The notes under the pieces: model-generated | The model's database searches: none | Seen by the model: only the letters and a program-made list of their open reading frames with translations | Told to the model about the DNA's origin: nothing | Shown here: positions 2,361 to 55,790 of the stretch, piece after piece | How the letters are laid out: each line of letters begins with the position of its first letter | How positions within the stretch are numbered: the stretch's first letter is position 1 | IMG/VR virus record: IMGVR_UViG_3300034073_002951 | Span: 1 to 64,000 of that record | DNA from: a virus | Strand: one strand, 5' to 3' | DNA: 64,000 nt | Position numbers and translations under genes: made by a program

Positions 2361-3064
2361 GAAATATGAAGAGTAAATTGATTATTATGAAATATTATAT
2401 AAGAATTATGTTCTATCCAATCACCACAATTAAGATAATGAATTTTTTGGTCTTTTACAAGTATTTCTTTTTCACACGGATTATGAATATGACCACAAAT
2501 TACACCAATACATCCCCTATTTAAAGATTGGAATGATAATTGTCTTTCAAAGGAAGTCATAAATTTGACTGCTCTTTTTACTCTTTTTTTTAAGTATGAT
2601 GATAATGATTTTTTATACCCAACTTTTTTAAGTAAAATATCAATACCAATCGCCAACTCATAACCCCAAGCACCTAATTTACCCAACCATTTTAATTTGA
2701 CAACACCATCGTATAAATCACCATGAGTAATTAGATAGTTATTCCAAATAATTTCATCCACTATCTGTATATTTTTTCCAAATACAAAAGGAGTGTAATG
2801 ACGTAAAAAATCATCGTGATTTCCTGTTATATAAGTTATATTTGTTCCTTTTTTGGAATAAGAAAGAACTTTACGAATTACATTAATATAGTCCTGTGTC
2901 CAATAATTTCGTCTTTTTAATAACCAACCATCAATAAAATCACCTACAATAAAAAGTTCTTTTGGTTCGTATTTTTTTAAAGTTTTTAATAGTTCTTTAG
3001 ACTGACTTCCCTTTGAACCCAAATGAACATCAGAAATAAAAAGTGCATCTACTTTCACTCCCAA
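2357..3064 (-). CDS. Calcineurin-like metallophosphoesterase, LpxH-like
   Basis: This 235-residue protein has all blocks of the metallophosphoesterase fold: ISDVHLGS (Asp12, His14), VGDFIDGW, GNHDDFLRHY, THGDLYDG and CGHIHNP. The overall arrangement resembles UDP-2,3-diacylglucosamine diphosphatase (LpxH), a lipid A enzyme, rather than phage nucleotidases. The start is a non-ATG codon (TTG at 3062-3064, or GTG two codons later), overlapping the upstream glycosyltransferase by 10 bases. That coupling to a glycosyltransferase suggests a role in envelope glycolipid chemistry, which is inference. A second metallophosphoesterase of another type is at 34282-34950. Confidence 0.8.
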   Translation of the reverse strand: MGVKVDALFISDVHLGSKGSQSKELLKTLKKYEPKELFIVGDFIDGWLLKRRNYWTQDYINVIRKVLSYSKKGTNITYITGNHDDFLRHYTPFVFGKNIQIVDEIIWNNYLITHGDLYDGVVKLKWLGKLGAWGYELAIGIDILLKKVGYKKSLSSYLKKRVKRAVKFMTSFERQLSFQSLNRGCIGVICGHIHNPCEKEILVKDQKIHYLNCGDWIEHNSYIIFHNNQFTLHIS

Positions 3065-3774
3065 TATCTCGATTTTTTAGTAAACTCTTCTCTACCATTT
3101 TTCATATATCTAAAAAGATTAGTAAGAAGATGTTTTCCCATACCGATATATCCCATCTTTTTAAATCTTCTGTCATCTTGACCAATATAATCATCAAAAA
3201 CTATAAATTCATTTGGTTTAAAATTTTGTGAAAAGAGAAAATCCTCTGAATTATCCGATTTCTCATTAAACATACCAAACTTTTGAAAGTCATCAGAGAT
3301 TGTCATGAAATATGCACCGATTGCAAAGGGATATTTAAAAGATAAAAAGTAATGAAAAAAATTATAGAGTGAAAATGCAATCTTACTTTTAAAACTCGGT
3401 GAATATGACTTTAATTTACAAGTTAAAAGTCTTTTATTACTCTCACCTAATCTTAAAAGTGATTGATAGATAGTATCATTTTTAAAAAAACGAACATCAC
3501 TATCAATAAAAAGAACAAAAGGAGTAGAAATTTGTTTAAATCCATTATTTCTACCTTCACTTACAGTTCCACCCTCTATAAGATGAATTTTGAGATGAGG
3601 AAATTCATGATTTTTATCAAAAATAACTTGTAGTGTGTTATCATTTGAATTTGCATCAGCTATAAAAATTTCAACATCCTCTATACCGAGTTGACGTGAC
3701 AAATCATCAAGAAGATTGCCTATATAATCTTCTTCATTTTTACATGGAATAACTATGGAAAGTAATTCTGTCAT
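3055..3774 (-). CDS. Family 2 glycosyltransferase (GT-A fold)
   Basis: A 239-residue inverting GT2-type glycosyltransferase. The N-terminus LSIVIPCKNEEDYIG is the nucleotide-binding entry strand, FIADANSNDNT is the second conserved block and LFIDSDVRF holds the acidic DxD-type metal site. It would transfer a sugar from a nucleotide-sugar donor; the acceptor is unknown. Membrane segments are not obvious, although a short hydrophobic aromatic stretch (FSLYNFFHYFLSF) occurs mid-protein. It overlaps its neighbours on both sides by 4 and 10 bases. Confidence 0.85.
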   Translation of the reverse strand: MTELLSIVIPCKNEEDYIGNLLDDLSRQLGIEDVEIFIADANSNDNTLQVIFDKNHEFPHLKIHLIEGGTVSEGRNNGFKQISTPFVLFIDSDVRFFKNDTIYQSLLRLGESNKRLLTCKLKSYSPSFKSKIAFSLYNFFHYFLSFKYPFAIGAYFMTISDDFQKFGMFNEKSDNSEDFLFSQNFKPNEFIVFDDYIGQDDRRFKKMGYIGMGKHLLTNLFRYMKNGREEFTKKSRYWE

Positions 3775-21349: not shown

Positions 21350-24061
21350 TTAGAAATTGTATCTTAACGATGCATTCCACGTTCTACCAAAACCAAACCA
21401 TACAGAGTTACGAACATCAACATCATTCCATGTTGGTGCGGTTCCATCTGCGTGAATGTTGGTATTTGATTCAGCAATATAAACGGTATCAAACACGTTG
21501 TTTACGTTTACTCTGAACGAAGCGTTATGCTTCATCAAATCAAATCTAACAGTAAGACCTAAATCTACCAATCCATAGGAAGGAAGTTCAAGTGCTCCTT
21601 TGTTATCAGGTCTTGTAAAGTCTGATGAAGTAATAGAATAGTCAGCAAATAACTTATCTGCGAAACGATGACTAATGTCTAAACTTACATCATCAACTCT
21701 AAAGTCAGCTTCTAAGTAAGTAGTAAACTGTGCTGCATCACCAACTTTAGCTCCTTTAGTATAAAGAGTACCTGTACCGATTTGTTGGTTGTTATCATCA
21801 AAGAGTACAGTAGAGAAGTCTTTTGTATATCTCCAATCACCAACTGAAACCATACCTGTTAGTTTCAGAGCGTTGAATGGACGATAAGTTGTTTCTACTT
21901 CTACACCATTGTGAAGAACATCAATATCACGGAACTGTGCAGTACCGTCTGTACCGTCTGCGGTTCTAAATCCTCTACTGATGAAACGATTACCCCATAC
22001 TGTGGAGTAGGCATTTACATTCAAAGTAAAGTCAGTACCTAAGTAACCGTAACCTAACTCAACAGATGTTACTCTTTCATTTTGTAGATCTGGATTGACT
22101 AAGTTTGCGTAGTTAGGAAATACAGCATCAAAGTTTGGTTGACGAGAAATGAAACCTGCATTGAAGAATACATTCTGTCTATCATTGATGTTGTAGTTTG
22201 CTCCACCTTTTACATATCCACCACCTTGGTTTACTTCTTCGGAAAGAGGAAGTGTTGGTTGGTCAAAAAGGTCTTCTCTTTGGAAGGATTGGTTAGATAC
22301 ACCTGCTTGAACTACTGCTGTAAGTTCTTCACCTGTATACTCGACCAAACCGTTTAGACCTTGCCATCCAACATAACCGACATTATAGTAGTCGATTTTC
22401 GGGCCGTTGAGACCTGTATTTTTGAATGGAGATGGGTCAATCAAAGTTTCAATGATTTGACCTGCGGAGTTCTTATTACCTGTTGAATAATAACCATCAA
22501 GACCCATAAGGTCAGTTACTACTCGGTAGTGGTAGCCTGTATAGTCTCTCAAGTCAATACCAACTGATGCACGAAGAGTTTCACCTTCATATTCCAAGTT
22601 AGAAATAACTCCATACCAGTCGTGTGAGTTCATAGAAGCTCTACGAATAAGAACCGCTCTATTTACTCCATCATTACGGAAACCGTTTGAACCGATACGA
22701 AGACCTTCAAAGCGTGAAATTGCTCCTGTGTAAGCTCCTGTGGTTGCTCTATTGACTTCAATGACTTTATCAAAATCAATAAATCCATCAGCATCTCTTG
22801 TACCTCTACCACGGTTTAAGTAGTGTTCGGTCAAGTCAATGTTGAATGGATACATATCAATATCACCATTACGGAAGTTATTTCCACGAGGACCAGTTCC
22901 TCCACCTCTACCTGCGGAAGCATAGAAAGAAGTATTCAACTGAAGTCTATCTGTGATTTCATAATCCCAGTTGAATGTTGCTAATGGTTTGTTGTAGAAG
23001 TTTCTTCTCATATTGAACTCTTCACCATCTAAGAATCCAGCATCAGTATTCCATCTTCTATCAATACCTTCTTCACCGAAGTTTTGGTAGTCACGGATTG
23101 ATACCCATGAGTCTCTTTGGTGGTGCCATTGACCTGCTCCTAAAACCGAAAGGTTTAGAGAGTGACGGGAGTCAGTTGGATTATATCCTACTGCGACAAA
23201 GTAAGTATGACCTTCACCTTGTGTTCCGTAGACATATCCATTACCCGCCCAATAGGAATAGAGGAAGGAAGTTGCCCATCCACTTTCACTTCTACCTGTG
23301 GAATAGGAAAGAGTTGTTTTGGTATAACCATCGTTACCGACAAGTTGAGATACAGTACCACCTCTTTCTCTCTCCGCAGCTTTTGTGAAGATAGATACAG
23401 TACCACCTACTGATGGAACTGCAAGACGAGAAGCACCAAGACCTCTTTGGATTTGGATACCAGAAGCTACATCAGTCAAACCTTGCCAGTTAGACCAATA
23501 TACCCATCCGTTTTCCATATCATTAACGGGTTGGCCATTGATAAGGAATGATGTATTACGTTGATCAAAACCACGAAGTGAAATACGGGAATCACCATAT
23601 CCACCACCTGTCTTGGTTGCGTAAACACCGGGTGTTCTTGCCATTACTTCTGGAAACTCTTGATTACCCACTCTTTGTGAGATTTCAAGAGGTGGAATTG
23701 TAGATACTGCAACAGGGGTTTCCCTGATTCTTGCAATATCAATAACTCCGGAAGTAACAACAATCTCACCAAGTTCACCGAACGCCTGTTCAAGTCTTAC
23801 GACCATTCCATTTGTTGCAGAAACTTCTTGAGTTTTATAACCAACAAAAGATACTACCAAAACCGTACCTTCGGTTGCTTCTTGAAGTGTAAAAGAACCA
23901 TCCATACCGGTACTAGCTCCGATATGTGGGCGTTCTTTCACAACAACAGTAGCACCGGGTAATCTTTCGGAAGTACTTGCATCAACCACAGTACCTGTGA
24001 TTTGTGCATTTGCTACCAATGATGAAAACATCATTGTGATTGCTATTAGTAGTTGTTTCAT
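21350..24061 (-). CDS. TonB-dependent outer-membrane receptor (SusC/CirA-like)
   Basis: A 903-residue outer-membrane receptor of host type. I choose the ATG at 24059-24061, which gives a clear signal peptide (MKQLLIAITMMFSSLVANA, cleavage before Gln20). Then come a carboxypeptidase-regulatory-like domain (GTVVDASTSERLPGATV, FVGYKTQEV; about 21-100), a plug (about 110-230, ISLRGFDQRNTSFLINGQPV) and a beta-barrel to a C-terminal Phe (WNASLRYNF), the Omp assembly signal. No truncation or frameshift is visible. It should import a ligand with host TonB/ExbBD. Such a complete receptor is rare in phages; acquisition from a Bacteroidota host is likely. Confidence 0.95.
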   Translation of the reverse strand: MKQLLIAITMMFSSLVANAQITGTVVDASTSERLPGATVVVKERPHIGASTGMDGSFTLQEATEGTVLVVSFVGYKTQEVSATNGMVVRLEQAFGELGEIVVTSGVIDIARIRETPVAVSTIPPLEISQRVGNQEFPEVMARTPGVYATKTGGGYGDSRISLRGFDQRNTSFLINGQPVNDMENGWVYWSNWQGLTDVASGIQIQRGLGASRLAVPSVGGTVSIFTKAAERERGGTVSQLVGNDGYTKTTLSYSTGRSESGWATSFLYSYWAGNGYVYGTQGEGHTYFVAVGYNPTDSRHSLNLSVLGAGQWHHQRDSWVSIRDYQNFGEEGIDRRWNTDAGFLDGEEFNMRRNFYNKPLATFNWDYEITDRLQLNTSFYASAGRGGGTGPRGNNFRNGDIDMYPFNIDLTEHYLNRGRGTRDADGFIDFDKVIEVNRATTGAYTGAISRFEGLRIGSNGFRNDGVNRAVLIRRASMNSHDWYGVISNLEYEGETLRASVGIDLRDYTGYHYRVVTDLMGLDGYYSTGNKNSAGQIIETLIDPSPFKNTGLNGPKIDYYNVGYVGWQGLNGLVEYTGEELTAVVQAGVSNQSFQREDLFDQPTLPLSEEVNQGGGYVKGGANYNINDRQNVFFNAGFISRQPNFDAVFPNYANLVNPDLQNERVTSVELGYGYLGTDFTLNVNAYSTVWGNRFISRGFRTADGTDGTAQFRDIDVLHNGVEVETTYRPFNALKLTGMVSVGDWRYTKDFSTVLFDDNNQQIGTGTLYTKGAKVGDAAQFTTYLEADFRVDDVSLDISHRFADKLFADYSITSSDFTRPDNKGALELPSYGLVDLGLTVRFDLMKHNASFRVNVNNVFDTVYIAESNTNIHADGTAPTWNDVDVRNSVWFGFGRTWNASLRYNF

Positions 24062-24120
24062 ATGTGTTTTTTGTTTTTTGTTGTTTGTATTGATACCACA
24101 CATAGTATGGTATTTATCCT
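24059..24120 (-). promoter_or_regulatory. A-rich leader of the TonB receptor with a small inverted repeat
   Basis: The leader lacks a Shine-Dalgarno site and is A/C-rich. It contains ATACCA...TGGTAT (about 24093-24113) as a 6-base stem. Its last 14 bases before and including the ATG are identical to those of the gp45 leader. A-rich leaders are typical of well-expressed Bacteroidota genes. I could not place a promoter here. Confidence 0.45.
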
Positions 24121-24129
24121 TTTTTTTTT

Positions 24130-26376
24130 TCAAAAGAATTTGTTTGTGTTATTATTTACTTTTATTCTTTTATTCGTTTCCTCAATATAAGGATTTTTTT
24201 GTTCATAGTCAATTCTTGCTTCCGCTATCTCAAAGTATTCCTTTTCTCTTTCTATTCCAATAAAATCAAATCCACCCCTTACTGCTGCCTTACCAGTACT
24301 TCCACTGCCCATAAACGGGTCTAATGTAGTTCCACTTTTTGGAGTAACTAAACGGATAAGATAAAGCATTAAGTCTGTTGGTTTTACAGTTGGGTGGTGG
24401 TTCTTTCTTGGTTGACCTAATGCACTCTGTCTGCCCGATGCTGGTTTGGACCGGGCGGAAGCCGGAGGTTCTCCAAACGGAAACTCATCCAACCCTTCGT
24501 TTCTATCCCCTTTTGAAGTTTTTGGACAATAGAAGAAACGAGATGCTCCGCCACTATCATTATGTCTTACTGTTACTTTATTTTTTAACCCTTTAAAAAA
24601 ATCATTTTGTTCTTCGGGATTTGTATAACCTATACTTGTTGCCGTACATTTACTCAACCCACTTTGTTCGTCCAATAACTTACCTGCTTCTTCATCAAAG
24701 ATAATGTTGGCAGGGAAACGGCCAGGTGGATTATAGTTCTTTGGTTCAACCATAGAGTAATCCCCATATATTATATTACCTGTTAGTGGTTTTGTTCCAA
24801 AGTCTGCGTGTTGGTTTTTTTGTGTGCTTTCTTTTCTATCCGCTTCATCTTTGAATGGTATTCTACTTTCATCTATGTTTATTCCACCGGTTCCCCATTC
24901 TAATACATTATCAACTACTGTATTTTCAGAGAGTGGTTTTCTTGCCATTACGATTGGTTCGTGTGCAGGTTTGAGAGCCGTCCCCCAACCTTCCCAATCA
25001 GAGTTTCCTTTGGTTATTTCCCATTCTCCTACACCATAGGTTGAACCATCATAGTCTGGACTATTTGGGTCTGCTTTACCCCAACAAGCATTTTTAGCAG
25101 TTCTACTATCATTTCCAACTACTTCTCTTTGATTACCAAGTTTTTTATCAACCTCTTTTCCTATGTTGTGTGATTTGGGGAAGCCTGAGTTTCCTGTAAT
25201 GAATACTTTTCCATTTCTACGAGCAACAAAAGCACCAGTTGAGGTGTTAGGACAGAAGATTACTCCTGAATAAGTTTCTTTGGTGATGGTTGCCAAATCG
25301 GTTGTATAGGATGTCCCGCTTCGTATTTCTTGTGGTCGGAGTTGTTCTTGAATAACATTAGATTGTTTATCTCGTTGTTTTCGGGGTTGTGGTCTATGTG
25401 ATGGATGCACTCCATTCGTGTTAGTGGTCTCCCCAAATATTGAGCTACCTTCAGTCGGTATTCCGTCACGTAACCATCTTTTCTTGCCATACTTTTGTAT
25501 TCTTCGGGACACCTCACGTATTTTATTCTTGCATTGGAGTAATACCCCTTCTTCTTTCTGTAAGTTATCCCACCCTTCCAAGCTGGATTGTTCTCCCCAC
25601 TCATATTCTGTCTGTAACTCTCGTGACTCTTTTCCGTCCACCCCGAACGACCTTTGTGTCCGTGATGTTTCCATTCTTCCCCCCTCACTTTGCCATTGCA
25701 TTGGTGACTGCAATAATTGGAGTTCCCCTTCTTGTAAGAAAGAAAAATCGTTTTGCAAAACTGGCACTCTTTCCATATCACCGAGGTCTTGTGATTTGGT
25801 GAATACAAGATTTCCATTTCGTTCAACAAGGCAGTTGTGGTCTTTGCTGACGAGTTGGTCTGTTTGATTTCCTCTAATACGATAGACGGTATCTTCGTTG
25901 AGCGAATATACATACCACCTTTCGGGCCTTTCCCATTTGTAAATGTCTCTTTCAATATCATAAACTAAAATCTCTCTTTTACTATAAATATCATCTTTTG
26001 TGATTTTATGGTAGTGTTTCCACCCCTCTTTTGTAAGGATTTCAGTATCTTCTGTTAGACATCCATACACCCACATAATTTGGTCTCTTATCTCAAATCC
26101 TGCATCTTCTATTCTAACTGCCATTCTATGATAAGTACGTGAACCTGCAAAAGCAAGAAGATGACCTCCGGGTTTTAGAACTCTCATACACTCTTCCCAA
26201 ATCTCTTGTGACGGAACATCGTAGTCCCACTGCTTTCCCATAAATCCACCTTTGGAAGTTTTACCACTATTTGGAGCTGCGGAAAGTCCGTATGGAGGGT
26301 CCGTAACTATGGAGTCAACGGAATTATCCCCTAACTCTTTGAGTTTATCTAAACAATCACCTAATAAGAGTTTCAT
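24130..26376 (-). CDS. N6-adenine DNA methyltransferase (DPPY) interrupted by an intein
   Basis: The 748-residue precursor contains a beta-type methylase split by an intein. N-extein (1-105) has TDPPYGLSAAP and GGHLLAFAGSRTYHRM; C-extein (397-748) begins SGFPKSHNIGKE and ends with the AdoMet-side block TLDPFMGSGSTGKAA. The intein runs from Cys106 to Asn396 with Ser397 as the +1 nucleophile. Splicing would give a 457-residue methylase. Inside the intein a different frame encodes an HNH nuclease. The methylase may modify phage DNA. It overlaps the 85-residue upstream gene by 4 bases. Confidence 0.92.
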   Translation of the reverse strand: MKLLLGDCLDKLKELGDNSVDSIVTDPPYGLSAAPNSGKTSKGGFMGKQWDYDVPSQEIWEECMRVLKPGGHLLAFAGSRTYHRMAVRIEDAGFEIRDQIMWVYGCLTEDTEILTKEGWKHYHKITKDDIYSKREILVYDIERDIYKWERPERWYVYSLNEDTVYRIRGNQTDQLVSKDHNCLVERNGNLVFTKSQDLGDMERVPVLQNDFSFLQEGELQLLQSPMQWQSEGGRMETSRTQRSFGVDGKESRELQTEYEWGEQSSLEGWDNLQKEEGVLLQCKNKIREVSRRIQKYGKKRWLRDGIPTEGSSIFGETTNTNGVHPSHRPQPRKQRDKQSNVIQEQLRPQEIRSGTSYTTDLATITKETYSGVIFCPNTSTGAFVARRNGKVFITGNSGFPKSHNIGKEVDKKLGNQREVVGNDSRTAKNACWGKADPNSPDYDGSTYGVGEWEITKGNSDWEGWGTALKPAHEPIVMARKPLSENTVVDNVLEWGTGGINIDESRIPFKDEADRKESTQKNQHADFGTKPLTGNIIYGDYSMVEPKNYNPPGRFPANIIFDEEAGKLLDEQSGLSKCTATSIGYTNPEEQNDFFKGLKNKVTVRHNDSGGASRFFYCPKTSKGDRNEGLDEFPFGEPPASARSKPASGRQSALGQPRKNHHPTVKPTDLMLYLIRLVTPKSGTTLDPFMGSGSTGKAAVRGGFDFIGIEREKEYFEIAEARIDYEQKNPYIEETNKRIKVNNNTNKFF
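25189..26061 (-). other. Intein (residues 106-396) in the DNA methyltransferase
   Basis: Block A is C106LTEDTEILTKEGW, block B is QLVSKDHNCLVE with His180, block F/G is GVIFCPNTSTGAFVARRNGK followed by VFITGN396, then Ser397. Asn396 is preceded by Gly instead of the usual His, a variation known in phage inteins. Residues about 205-360 show no endonuclease motif in this frame and are rich in Gln, Glu, Ser and Arg. That segment coincides with the HNH gene in the +1 frame. The insertion splits the conserved GSGFPKSHN region of the methylase. Confidence 0.9.
25260..25961 (-). CDS. HNH homing endonuclease nested in the +1 frame of the intein
   Basis: A 233-codon frame wholly inside the intein. 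From the ATG at 25961 it has a zinc finger (CQFC at 66-69, C84 and C88), a NUMOD3-like GENNPAWKGG (122-131) and an HNH core MECIHHIDHNPENNEINNL (183-201). The first 60 residues overlap the splicing domain and are probably not part of the nuclease. Candidate starts are the ATGs at 25961, 25913 (with AAGGTGG just upstream) and 25817. The nuclease would cut intein-less methylase alleles. Translation route, internal initiation or frameshift, is unknown. Confidence 0.8.
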   Translation of the reverse strand: MILKETFTNGKGPKGGMYIRSTKIPSIVLEEIKQTNSSAKTTTALLNEMEILYSPNHKTSVIWKECQFCKTIFLSYKKGNSNYCSHQCNGKVRGEEWKHHGHKGRSGWTEKSHESYRQNMSGENNPAWKGGITYRKKKGYYSNARIKYVRCPEEYKSMARKDGYVTEYRLKVAQYLGRPLTRMECIHHIDHNPENNEINNLMLFKNNSDHKKYEAGHPIQPIWQPSPKKLIQE

Positions 26377-27122: not shown

Positions 27123-27151
27123 AATATATTAAAAGTTTGTGTAAATTTCAA
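27123..27151 (-). promoter_or_regulatory. Promoter for dUTPase, TTGAAA-N17-TATATT
   Basis: TTGAAA (27146-27151) and TATATT (27123-27128) on the minus strand, 17 bases apart, lying over the end of the radical SAM gene. The dUTPase ATG starts 8 bases after the -10 box. Confidence 0.6.
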
Positions 27152-28361
27152 GGTTTTTGTATTTTTTTCTGCATTCTTTTACTGTTTTCACTTCATTTTT
27201 AAAATCTAAATAATCAAAATGAGAACTTGACCATATTTTTTTTAATTCAAATTCCTCATCACTAAATGTTCCCCAATTATTTATATGAATAAAATTTACT
27301 TCCGTTCGCATTCCATTCAATTTTTGAAAGTAATCACTCATTTCTATGAAGGATACCATTTCTTTGTAATTGTTATTTTGAACTACAAAAGTCATTCTAA
27401 CAAAATCCAAGTTTGGTATTTTTGTAAAAATAAAATGAAGATTTTTTTGAAGTCTTTCCCAAATACCCCCTCTTCTTATGACCTCATATGTTTCTTTTGT
27501 GGAGGCATCAATACTAATTTCAGCTGCTATTCTTGGAATTTTATGTAAGTTTGATAACTTGTTCCATAATTCTTCAGTCCATCCATTTCCATTTGTATGA
27601 AGGTGTAAAGTTTTTACTTGAGGATATTTTTCTATTGTTATTGATTTTAATAAATTTCTCCAATTTTTACCACCAAAAGGATCACCAGATGCTGTTATAT
27701 ATAATTCATGAGCATCTTTCATGGTTTTTTTAAGAATATAATTTTGTATTTTTTCTGATTGTTTCTTTTCTTCACCTTCATACTGAATAAATTCATTTCT
27801 ACAAGAAGGACAACTTAAATTACAACTTCTATCGTGTGAAAAAATTACGGTTTCAGGATCCCATTTTAATTCAGTCAATTTGTTAAAATAAATTTCTTTC
27901 CACTTTTCTTCACCATCTGGATTTATTTCTTTAGCATTCCAAAGTTTATGAATAGTTGTATCATCATAAATTGGAAAATATCCGTTATTATAAACACTTT
28001 CATCTATATTTTCATTCCACCATCTGTGTAAAAACCCACATTCATTTTCGTCACAGTATTTAAAATCACCATCATGCATTGATTGACGAAGTTTTATTGC
28101 AATTTCACTATTCCAAATTTTTTCCCAATTTTTTTCATTCAAAACATTTCCCGCAGGACCACTTTGTATCCAAGCGTTTTGCCATTTTTTTAATTCCTCA
28201 ACCCAATATCCACTACAACATTGCCAAACTTCACCATTTACTAAAAATTCTGCATTCCTAAAAGGAGCAACACAAAACCCTTTTCTTTTTGGTTTAAAAT
28301 TATCTGTTTTATACTCTTCAGATAATATTTCATTAATTATTTGTTGTATATCATCGGTCAT
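27129..28361 (-). CDS. Radical SAM protein with N-terminal cysteine block
   Basis: A 410-residue radical SAM enzyme. The iron-sulfur motif is CNLSCPSC (Cys-x3-Cys-x2-Cys) in SHDRSCNLSCPSCRNEF, after a long N-terminal region with GFCVAPFRNAEFLVNG and EVWQCCSGYW, which resembles a SPASM-type auxiliary cluster region placed before the core. ITASGDPFGG and EISIDASTKETYE follow the usual barrel order. It may modify a peptide or nucleotide. There is no adjacent precursor peptide that I can identify. The next gene upstream is the gp41 helicase. Confidence 0.8.
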   Translation of the reverse strand: MTDDIQQIINEILSEEYKTDNFKPKRKGFCVAPFRNAEFLVNGEVWQCCSGYWVEELKKWQNAWIQSGPAGNVLNEKNWEKIWNSEIAIKLRQSMHDGDFKYCDENECGFLHRWWNENIDESVYNNGYFPIYDDTTIHKLWNAKEINPDGEEKWKEIYFNKLTELKWDPETVIFSHDRSCNLSCPSCRNEFIQYEGEEKKQSEKIQNYILKKTMKDAHELYITASGDPFGGKNWRNLLKSITIEKYPQVKTLHLHTNGNGWTEELWNKLSNLHKIPRIAAEISIDASTKETYEVIRRGGIWERLQKNLHFIFTKIPNLDFVRMTFVVQNNNYKEMVSFIEMSDYFQKLNGMRTEVNFIHINNWGTFSDEEFELKKIWSSSHFDYLDFKNEVKTVKECRKKYKNLEIYTNF

Positions 28362-53381: not shown

Positions 53382-55790
53382 TTATGCCGAGAAGGATGCA
53401 CCTGTCGGTAGTATGTTGAAGTCTAACACGATGAATTCAGCAGTCTTCGTAGGTTGTAAGTAAATCTGACCTGCCAAGATGTTTCTGTCGATTACATCAG
53501 GTGTGTTGTTTGTTTCGTCCATAACTACACGGAAGGCGTATAAACCTTGTCTTTGTTGTATTCCTTCAAGATAAGGGTTCACTGTATTTAAGAACCTGTT
53601 TCTTGTTGTTGCTGTGTTTTGTTCGAATACCAAGTATCTTGATGTTGAAGCGATATACTTCTTCACTTTGATAAGTAGTCTTCTTACGTTAATTCTGTCT
53701 AATGCTGAAGCTCTGTCTTGAAGTGTTTTCTGACCGAATGCTACAATACCCTCACCTGGAAATTGAGCGATTGGGTTTACTTTTCCTTCATATAGTTGGT
53801 CTCTTTCAGCGTGTGTAAGTCTGTTAAGTACCGAGATTGCCCCTGTGATACCACCTCTGTTAAGACCTGCTGGAGCGAACCATTCAGCTGCTACTGCGTC
53901 GTTGGCTGCGTATATTCCTGGCATCAATACTGATGGTGGAACAGCAGTTAGTCTGTTTGTTCTACTATCGATTGTTTTAACCCAAGGATAGTATGTACCA
54001 ACATAGTTAGAGTCAATTGAATTAGCTTCTTGGATTGCTTGTGCGATAGTATCGGATGTTTGACCTCCTGTGATAGAGTCATAAGATACACCGACAACAT
54101 CACCGATGAAGAAAGCATCTTCACGAGCTTCAACCATATCTACAATCTTGTCGAATACATAAGAGTGGTGTCTACGAATAACACCTGGTGCAGCTACCAA
54201 GTTGATATCGAAATCATCAGGGTTAGATACTGCGTTGATTGCTCTTACGTATGCAACTGAACCACTTGCGGTTGAATTACTTAAATCAAATCCTTGTGAG
54301 TTACCTGAACCAAATTCTTCATTTGTATTAAGGTTTTTCTCACCTGCTTTTAGTGGTTTAATTGTTGGAGCAACTCCATCAAATCCACCTTGGAAACCAA
54401 CTACGAATTGACGTTTTGCGGTATCGTCAGCAGATGAACCTGTCATTGCATATCCAAATCCATGATTTGTAACAACTACACCACCAACGATAGCGGTTAA
54501 ATTAGTTGCGTCAAATGCGAAGTCTGTGTTTGCACCAACTGTTGCACTTGATGGAATTGGTTTTAGATAATTACGGTTATTTAGTTTAACAACTGCTGTA
54601 TCAAAGTCCATACCTGAATAGTATGTTGTTGATGAAGAGTTGTTGTCTGCTGAACCTGTGGAGTAAATTACCGCTGGTATAAGTGTTTCTTCACCACCAC
54701 CGACAAATACAGGGTTTGTGTAAGCACCATGTCCGAATGGAGCAGCAGTTACAGGGAACGAACCCTCTGGTTTGGTTTCAACTCTAATGTATTTAGAACG
54801 GTTAACATAGTCACCATTCATTGTTTGTTTACCAGTAGAGTCTATTGTAATATTCATATCACCGATTACTTTCTTAATGTAATTTGGTGAAGCTGGGTCT
54901 AAGTTTACATTATTCCATGTTTCAAGAATAACTGGTCTTCTGTCTGTATCAGAGAAACCACGAACTACGATTGAGAATGTTGCGTAGTCGGTAGAGTTAG
55001 TTGAACCGGCAGCTTTAACATTAAAGACACCTACTTTAACATCTTGGTTGTAATATGTACCATCACCAAGTGTGTGGAAGCGAACTAAATCGTATCTTTG
55101 ACCTGAAATAAGTTGTGATTTAATCCAAGGAGTAGAAGCAAAAGTTACGTCTTGTGCAAATACTTGGTCTGCTAATTCTACTATCTCAACAACAGAACCA
55201 CTATCTGAAATAAATGTTGTTTGATCAGTTGCAGTTTTTTCAAAGTATGAATAAACATATCCACCCTTTGTACCGTATGGTGATGTACCGAATACGTCAC
55301 GAATGTCTTGATTGGAGTTAGGTAATACAGAAGATGAACCTGCAAACTCAAGGTCTGAACCACTAATGTAGAAATTAGATGATGAAGGTTGTGCATCGAT
55401 AGTAGTATCATCATTAAAACCATCATCTAAAGTCTGTCTTTCAGTTACGTGGAAAGTACCAACGATTTTTCTACCTCCATCAGAACCACTGACTGCAATT
55501 GCAAATGGGTTAGCGTGTGTATAACCACCTACGTGACCAACTCTAACGATTGTTACAGTTCCTGCTTCACGTAAATAATTTTGTACAGTATATCCTGTAT
55601 AATATGATCCGTCTGGTGTACCGAATATTTCTTCGAATTGTGCTTGTGTATTAACTACTGTTGGAACGAATGCTGGGCCTTTTTGGAAAGGACCGATGAT
55701 TGCTGCTCCAATTTCACCAATTCCTTGTGCTAAGAAAGATAGGTCATTCTCTCTTGTAAATACACCTGGTGATACGATTTTTTCTGCCAT
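53382..55790 (-). CDS. 18: Tail sheath protein (T4 gp18-like)
   Basis: An 802-residue contractile sheath subunit, longer than T4 gp18 (659). The N-terminus SPGVFTRENDLSFLAQGIGE is the usual opening of myovirus sheath proteins, with GAAIIGPFQKGPAFVPTVV after it. The C-terminus INVRRLLIKVKKYIASTSRY, FEQNTATTRNRFLNTVNPYL and YLQPTKTAEFIVLDFNILPT is the highly conserved core domain. The middle 350 residues are a variable surface-exposed insertion. Codon content is G/C-richer than its neighbours, as for highly expressed genes. Confidence 0.95.
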   Translation of the reverse strand: MAEKIVSPGVFTRENDLSFLAQGIGEIGAAIIGPFQKGPAFVPTVVNTQAQFEEIFGTPDGSYYTGYTVQNYLREAGTVTIVRVGHVGGYTHANPFAIAVSGSDGGRKIVGTFHVTERQTLDDGFNDDTTIDAQPSSSNFYISGSDLEFAGSSSVLPNSNQDIRDVFGTSPYGTKGGYVYSYFEKTATDQTTFISDSGSVVEIVELADQVFAQDVTFASTPWIKSQLISGQRYDLVRFHTLGDGTYYNQDVKVGVFNVKAAGSTNSTDYATFSIVVRGFSDTDRRPVILETWNNVNLDPASPNYIKKVIGDMNITIDSTGKQTMNGDYVNRSKYIRVETKPEGSFPVTAAPFGHGAYTNPVFVGGGEETLIPAVIYSTGSADNNSSSTTYYSGMDFDTAVVKLNNRNYLKPIPSSATVGANTDFAFDATNLTAIVGGVVVTNHGFGYAMTGSSADDTAKRQFVVGFQGGFDGVAPTIKPLKAGEKNLNTNEEFGSGNSQGFDLSNSTASGSVAYVRAINAVSNPDDFDINLVAAPGVIRRHHSYVFDKIVDMVEAREDAFFIGDVVGVSYDSITGGQTSDTIAQAIQEANSIDSNYVGTYYPWVKTIDSRTNRLTAVPPSVLMPGIYAANDAVAAEWFAPAGLNRGGITGAISVLNRLTHAERDQLYEGKVNPIAQFPGEGIVAFGQKTLQDRASALDRINVRRLLIKVKKYIASTSRYLVFEQNTATTRNRFLNTVNPYLEGIQQRQGLYAFRVVMDETNNTPDVIDRNILAGQIYLQPTKTAEFIVLDFNILPTGASFSA

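Follow-up and report, generated by a model that had tools for sequence, protein, structure and literature searches.

HNH endonuclease frames overprinted on inteins of phage methylase and terminase genes

Two reading frames share the DNA of an intein in many phages, and both are intact, conserved and distinguishably constrained: one encodes an intein-like splicing fold and the other an HNH-type enzyme. Methylase and terminase inteins taken together, the arrangement is seen again and again, in about a hundred loci from phages. We consider it likely that these loci represent a mini-intein together with a hidden homing endonuclease that is translated on its own, the two moving as one unit; here, the splicing, the internal start, the cleavage site and the homing are inferred, and our main reading is limited by the absence of expression, splicing or cleavage data.

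The methylase intein and its nested frame

The stretch of DNA analysed here (the window; 64,000 nucleotides) comes from a virus record of 71,091 bases (IMGVR_UViG_3300034073_002951). The features of the locus are as follows:

24130..26376 (-): ORF of an N6/N4 DNA methylase interrupted by the intein, 748 aa; PF01555, 111 bits, strongest in the C-extein
25189..26061 (-): intein, Cys1 to Asn291 (291 aa; Cys106-Asn396 of the methylase ORF), inserted at YG^SGFPKS, +1 residue Ser
25732..26061 (-): N-terminal half of the splicing domain, intein residues 1-110, with block A Cys1 and block B SxxH His75 (AlphaFold, conserved residues)
25315..25731 (-): in-frame intein linker, residues 111-249, predicted to be disordered (pLDDT mostly <50)
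25189..25314 (-): C-terminal half of the splicing domain, residues 250-291, with invariant Cys270 and Thr289-Gly-Asn291 (pLDDT 90-96)
25260..25961 (-): hidden HNH homing-endonuclease ORF in the +1 frame relative to the intein, 233 aa, stop at 25260-25262
25959..25961 (-): ATG, the most likely HNH start codon, at a conserved position in 9/9 close relatives
25911..25913 (-): alternative HNH start ATG, with AAGG upstream
25813..25878 (-): segment coding in two frames, for intein block B (IRGNQTDQLVSKDHNCLVERNG) and for the N-terminal helices of the HNH (EEIKQTNSSAKTTTALLNEME); conserved in both
25698..25766 (-): HNH zinc finger CxxC ... CxxxC (C66, C69, C84, C88), invariant in 36 sequences
25329..25403 (-): HNH core (H187-H188 ... 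N196, N200 ... H210), invariant or nearly so in 36 sequences; PF13392

Regarding the surroundings, the methylase is adjoined by a full TonB-dependent receptor (21350-24133; CarboxypepD_reg_2, Plug and barrel), normally a bacterial outer-membrane gene, found here in the record of a contractile-tail phage (sheath at 53382-55790). A Radical SAM/SPASM protein (27129-28361) lies near genes for a DnaB-like helicase and a second methylase.

The junctions of the insertion read IMWVYG^CLTEDTEILT ... RRNGKVFITGN^SGFPKS, so the features expected of an intein (Cys1, the C-terminal Asn291 and Ser+1) are all present, at an insertion site common to approximately 80 parsed inteins; the C-terminus is GN rather than HN. 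Cys1 and His75 of the SxxH (TxxH-like) block B are invariant across 52 intein sequences, and in the intein set the same holds for the C-terminal Asn, the +1 Ser, the block-F Cys270 and the block-G Thr289. The closest solved structure is the AceL NrdHF intein (6zgq), both by profile (E 1e-7) and by Foldseek (2e-5), and other inteins were also matched. In the AlphaFold model, residues 1-110 form strands, and their pLDDT in blocks of ten residues is mostly 82-98, falling to 66 at 21-30 and 73 at 101-110; residues 250-291 are also modelled with confidence, and the middle of the intein frame is disordered. We therefore read the two halves as an intein (Hint-like) fold, as predicted by the model, with splicing activity being an inference. 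The window intein does not reach Pfam thresholds, the Intein_splicing cut-off included, and a CTD5 match (0.0047) was disregarded as falling below its cut-off. A peptide-pattern search with the intein protein alone returned no relatives, owing to the lack of conservation in the linker. An endonuclease in the intein's own frame was detected neither by Pfam in 52 in-frame inteins nor in the AlphaFold model.

The mechanistic class of the intein remains unsettled. An invariant block-F Cys and block-G Thr are features of class 3 inteins, and the AceL NrdHF intein, the closest solved splicing domain, is a class 3 split intein; yet Cys1 is also invariant in the set to which the window belongs.

As for the nested frame, HNH_3 (PF13392) matched all 36 scanned relatives at E<0.01, and the window copy falls just under the cut-off (24.5 bits vs 24.8). 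Across 53 loci, conservation of the zinc-finger and HNH residues is mostly 94-98%. The AlphaFold model of this frame is ordered (mean pLDDT 84); a fold search with it found no significant solved structure, I-HmuI appearing merely at E 2.2. The 5' part of the HNH overlaps intein block B. Since the model shows helices for the HNH N-terminal motif (IPxxE...QTKSS...LNEME; residues 21-50, pLDDT 91-94), and two free-standing HNHs (L155 and L131) share this motif, this segment appears to be usefully read in both frames.

These results bear on a preliminary description of the locus made from the letters alone. Its first claim, that a methylase intein spans Cys106-Asn396 with its splicing blocks and no endonuclease in its own frame, was upheld by the ORF, the junctions, Pfam and the model; its second, that the +1 frame encodes a zinc-finger HNH, was upheld by the ORF, the HNH_3 relatives and the conserved residues. 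That the nuclease is overprinted in another frame of the intein is likewise supported, with independent translation, homing and splicing remaining inferences.

Recurrence in methylase and terminase genes

The first relative found has an HNH 67% identical to that of the window and the same layout, as does the huge phage LR756508.1. A query composed of the intein C-terminus and the extein recovered 80 IMG/VR loci in which this intein occupies the identical site. In the 81 non-duplicate inteins parsed, the HNH ORF was in +1 in 53, and never in frame or in +2; the remaining inteins at that site carry an in-frame LAGLIDADG or its degenerate remains. The HNH type occupies one side of a branch in the splicing-domain tree (SH-aLRT 85), with a single change observed against approximately 21 in shuffles. 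A first genome scan with three HNH sequences yielded no loci, and a second scan with the 36-member HNH alignment yielded 14. This brought the count to at least 68 distinct methylase-intein loci from phages and bacterial genome bins, 68/68 with the HNH in +1. All of them share one insertion site, and the HNH stop lies 62-98 nt before the intein end. The HNH frames are open except in a few truncated or interrupted copies (L034, L044, L067).

A weak match (L181) led to inteins of the terminase large subunit, where approximately 36 loci have an HNH in +1, again without exception. Carriers include Synechococcus phage S-EIVl, whose gene is annotated 'putative terminase large subunit', Gordonia phage Clown (gp5), a Polaromonas-bin phage and more than 30 IMG/VR contigs. 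The terminase frame passes the Intein_splicing cut-off of 35.8 (44.9 bits in S-EIVl and 53.7 in Clown), and the +1 frame also passes Pfam (S-EIVl, HNH 23.9 vs 21.4; Clown, HNH_3 26.9 vs 24.8). The terminase inteins with a multi-zinc-finger HNH in +1 are:

L192, 2159-3148
L193, 1934-3073
L181, 2275-3156
L194-L247

The preliminary description would have been refuted by homologous inteins with an in-frame HNH, this copy being explained by sequencing indels, or by stops in the HNH frame of close relatives. Neither condition holds: the HNH is out of frame throughout, the HNH frames are open apart from the few copies named above, and two isolated phages show the arrangement as well. What goes beyond that description is the large family, the terminase inteins, the nearly forced +1 relation, the published ShiLan precedent and a better start codon, at 25961.

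One could argue that the HNH is a fusion reached by programmed frameshifting, or is truly in frame and displaced by an assembly indel. In favour of such a view, both frames lie on the same strand, the relation is always +1, and the HNH ORF opens soon after the intein N-terminus. However, a pair of indels would be needed in each of approximately 100 contigs and in the genomes of two isolated phages. Frameshifting is opposed by the lack of a fixed entry point, as the distance from Cys1 to the HNH ORF start varies from -16 to more than 40 codons, and by the presence of an ATG of its own ahead of the first conserved HNH residue in 48 of 50 copies. We regard both variants as very unlikely.

Another possibility is that no spliced intein exists at all, and that the locus is a ShiLan-type insertion of an out-of-frame HNH whose translated shadow is retained in the methylase. 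ShiLan-type HNHs do occur in the same gene family (PMC11855218), in +2 and at another site. Moreover, the same HNH family as in the window is found in +1 of 16 methylases, approximately 20-30 codons downstream of SGFPKS, without intein blocks (L150, L151, L153, L156, L159-L161, L163-L165, L167, L168, L176, L177, L139, L146); a case on Cupriavidus necator chromosome 2 (L164/L174) is among these. Against this possibility stand the invariant Cys1, block B His, C-terminal Asn and +1 Ser, the Hint-like model with its matches to inteins in the PDB, and an insertion site identical to that of the LAGLIDADG inteins. Such evidence makes this explanation very unlikely as well.

Several further hidden frames deserve a comment. 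In several of the cases without an intein, Cys pairs in the methylase frame (CxC ... CxxCGxP) flank the insert like a zinc clamp around a loop. Six methylase genes (L039, L044, L058, L014, L026, L050) have more hidden HNH frames elsewhere, beside the overprinted intein, and these are ShiLan-like elements outside mycobacteriophages. In L187, an HNH in +1 (2767-3297) covers the end of an apparent C5 cytosine methyltransferase and is a candidate hidden HNH.

Chance, selection and translation of the hidden frame

Is the HNH frame merely a chance open frame or a non-functional relic, the intein alone being real? The preliminary description had pointed to two open antisense frames in the window, and these were confirmed; similar antisense openness is seen in 36/48 relatives, and we take it as a by-product. 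This openness, the few degraded or truncated copies and the lack of expression data might be cited in support of a relic or chance frame. We computed openness probabilities with each gene's own codon usage. In the window, the HNH protein would leave the intein frame open with a probability of 10^-15.6 (median over loci 10^-10.5), and the intein protein would leave the HNH frame open with a probability of 10^-5.1 (median 10^-3.6). In the equivalent frame, four free-standing HNH relatives (L155, L131, L158, L166, of which the first two are full length) contain 17-31 stops, and another one, from a GC-rich Curtobacterium, contains a single stop.

Substitutions in 35 moderately diverged pairs point in the same direction. 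In the HNH core, they peak at the third HNH codon position (0.283/0.232/0.476 at positions 1/2/3), while at the splicing ends they follow the positions of the intein frame (0.21/0.17/0.43 and 0.12/0.03/0.55). On the same DNA, the HNH product retains 64.5% identity vs 41% for the intein-frame product. The terminase inteins repeat the pattern (0.197/0.168/0.407; identity 75% for the HNH vs 52%). The contrasts in codon phase and identity therefore indicate that the HNH frame is under purifying selection, and that the linker frame mainly must stay open; the in-frame linker is a by-product of HNH coding. Together with the conserved zinc-finger and catalytic residues, the uniform HNH_3 matches and the existence of free-standing homologues, this makes a relic or chance frame very unlikely, and purifying selection refutes it for the family. 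The arrangement is neither chance nor sequencing error.

The uniformity of the frame also has a simple explanation. When the last 170 residues of the HNH proteins were examined, the +2 relation brought unavoidable stops for 36/53 methylase-type and 23/26 terminase-type proteins, whereas a stop-free +1 relation was possible for all 53 and all 26. Because +2 mostly forces stops and +1 never does, a uniform +1 can be explained without common descent, and we conclude that the relation is close to forced by coding constraints.

How the HNH is translated is less clear. The ATG found ahead of the first conserved HNH residue in 48/50 copies compares with 42.6 expected, a modest enrichment. The preliminary description had proposed the ATG at 25913 as a possible start; despite its upstream AAGG, this codon is not conserved (its counterpart in the relative L002 is TTG) and fails as the preferred start, the ATG at 25961 being better conserved, as it is present in 9/9 loci of the close subclade of the window. 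The conserved Met of LNEMEI was rejected as a universal start, being Met in under half. No strong Shine-Dalgarno sequence or ribosome-binding site was found before the ATG at 25961. Internal initiation is therefore an inference from the start-codon enrichment and the subclade ATG, in the absence of a strong ribosome-binding site.

Mobility, related systems and meaning

We propose the following scenario. A mini-intein (Hint domain) interrupts the phage N6/N4 DNA methylase, and protein splicing would mature the host protein. The DNA of the dispensable linker would be read again in +1 as a separate zinc-finger HNH endonuclease, whose translation probably begins inside the methylase mRNA at the ATG at 25961. 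The target of this enzyme would be methylase genes that lack the intein, cleaved at the conserved YGSGFPKS codons, and repair of the cut would copy the whole element into the methylase gene.

Several observations are compatible with mobility. In pairs such as L016/L178, the inteins are 86% identical vs 60% and 59% for the flanks. Splicing-domain and HNH distances correlate (r 0.36, p 0.001, Mantel test), and splicing-domain and extein distances do so at just 0.03-0.18. These contrasts and correlations favour the intein and the HNH moving as a unit, as support and not as proof, and indicate that the history of the element is partly independent of that of its host gene. Not all of the higher intein identity need reflect transfer, because dual coding itself slows divergence. 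The HNH tree intermixes intein, no-intein and free copies, with too poor a resolution for the direction of evolution to be read.

Three known systems invite comparison. The ShiLan domain of mycobacteriophages (Arsenault, Gosselin, Gogarten 2025, PMC11855218) is an out-of-frame zinc-finger HNH in an open insertion of a phage DNA methylase, as in the window, and its disjunct distribution suggests homing. However, it is explicitly without splicing domains or blocks, lies in the third (+2) frame at another site and starts with GTG, whereas the window HNH lies in +1 inside an intein. Inteins that include their endonuclease in frame (LAGLIDADG or HNH), such as the mycobacteriophage methylase intein, share the site and the splicing domain and place the nuclease between blocks B and F; there, it is within the intein polypeptide, while in the window it occupies a separate frame and the in-frame linker is disordered. 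Finally, fractured genes (Dassa et al. 2009) reportedly have split inteins whose halves are separated by a free endonuclease gene. In these, the endonuclease is also translated apart from the splicing domain, but the window intein is continuous and completely encloses its endonuclease gene, which uses a different frame.

The literature searched, which did not cover a directly relevant 2025 preprint, contained no report of an endonuclease placed out of frame within an intein; priority is uncertain because of the preprint. With that reservation, and with the biochemistry being inferred, the overprinted intein appears to be a new and widespread variant beyond the published hidden HNHs without an intein. 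It is tempting to go further and to suppose that overprinted inteins constitute a distinct, widespread class of mobile elements with an independent +1 HNH homing nuclease and at least two origins (methylase and terminase), a reading towards which we lean only slightly. They would always be +1 because this is nearly the only sense frame that keeps the splicing frame free of stops. Since any stop or indel arising in the linker disrupts the host gene too, the hidden nuclease may be sheltered from decay.

Textbook inteins fuse a splicing domain with an in-frame endonuclease; overprinting uncouples the two, and does so extensively, in phage genes that have been studied well. Gene finders show just one frame of an overprinted intein, and the design has been little noticed. 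The finding opens questions on how a nested gene starts inside its host gene, on dual coding vs the usual decay of homing endonucleases, on the mobility of mini-inteins and on how an endonuclease and a splicing domain join. Gordonia phage Clown and Synechococcus phage S-EIVl, being isolated phages, are usable as experimental systems for such questions, and the naturally disordered linkers are useful for intein engineering.
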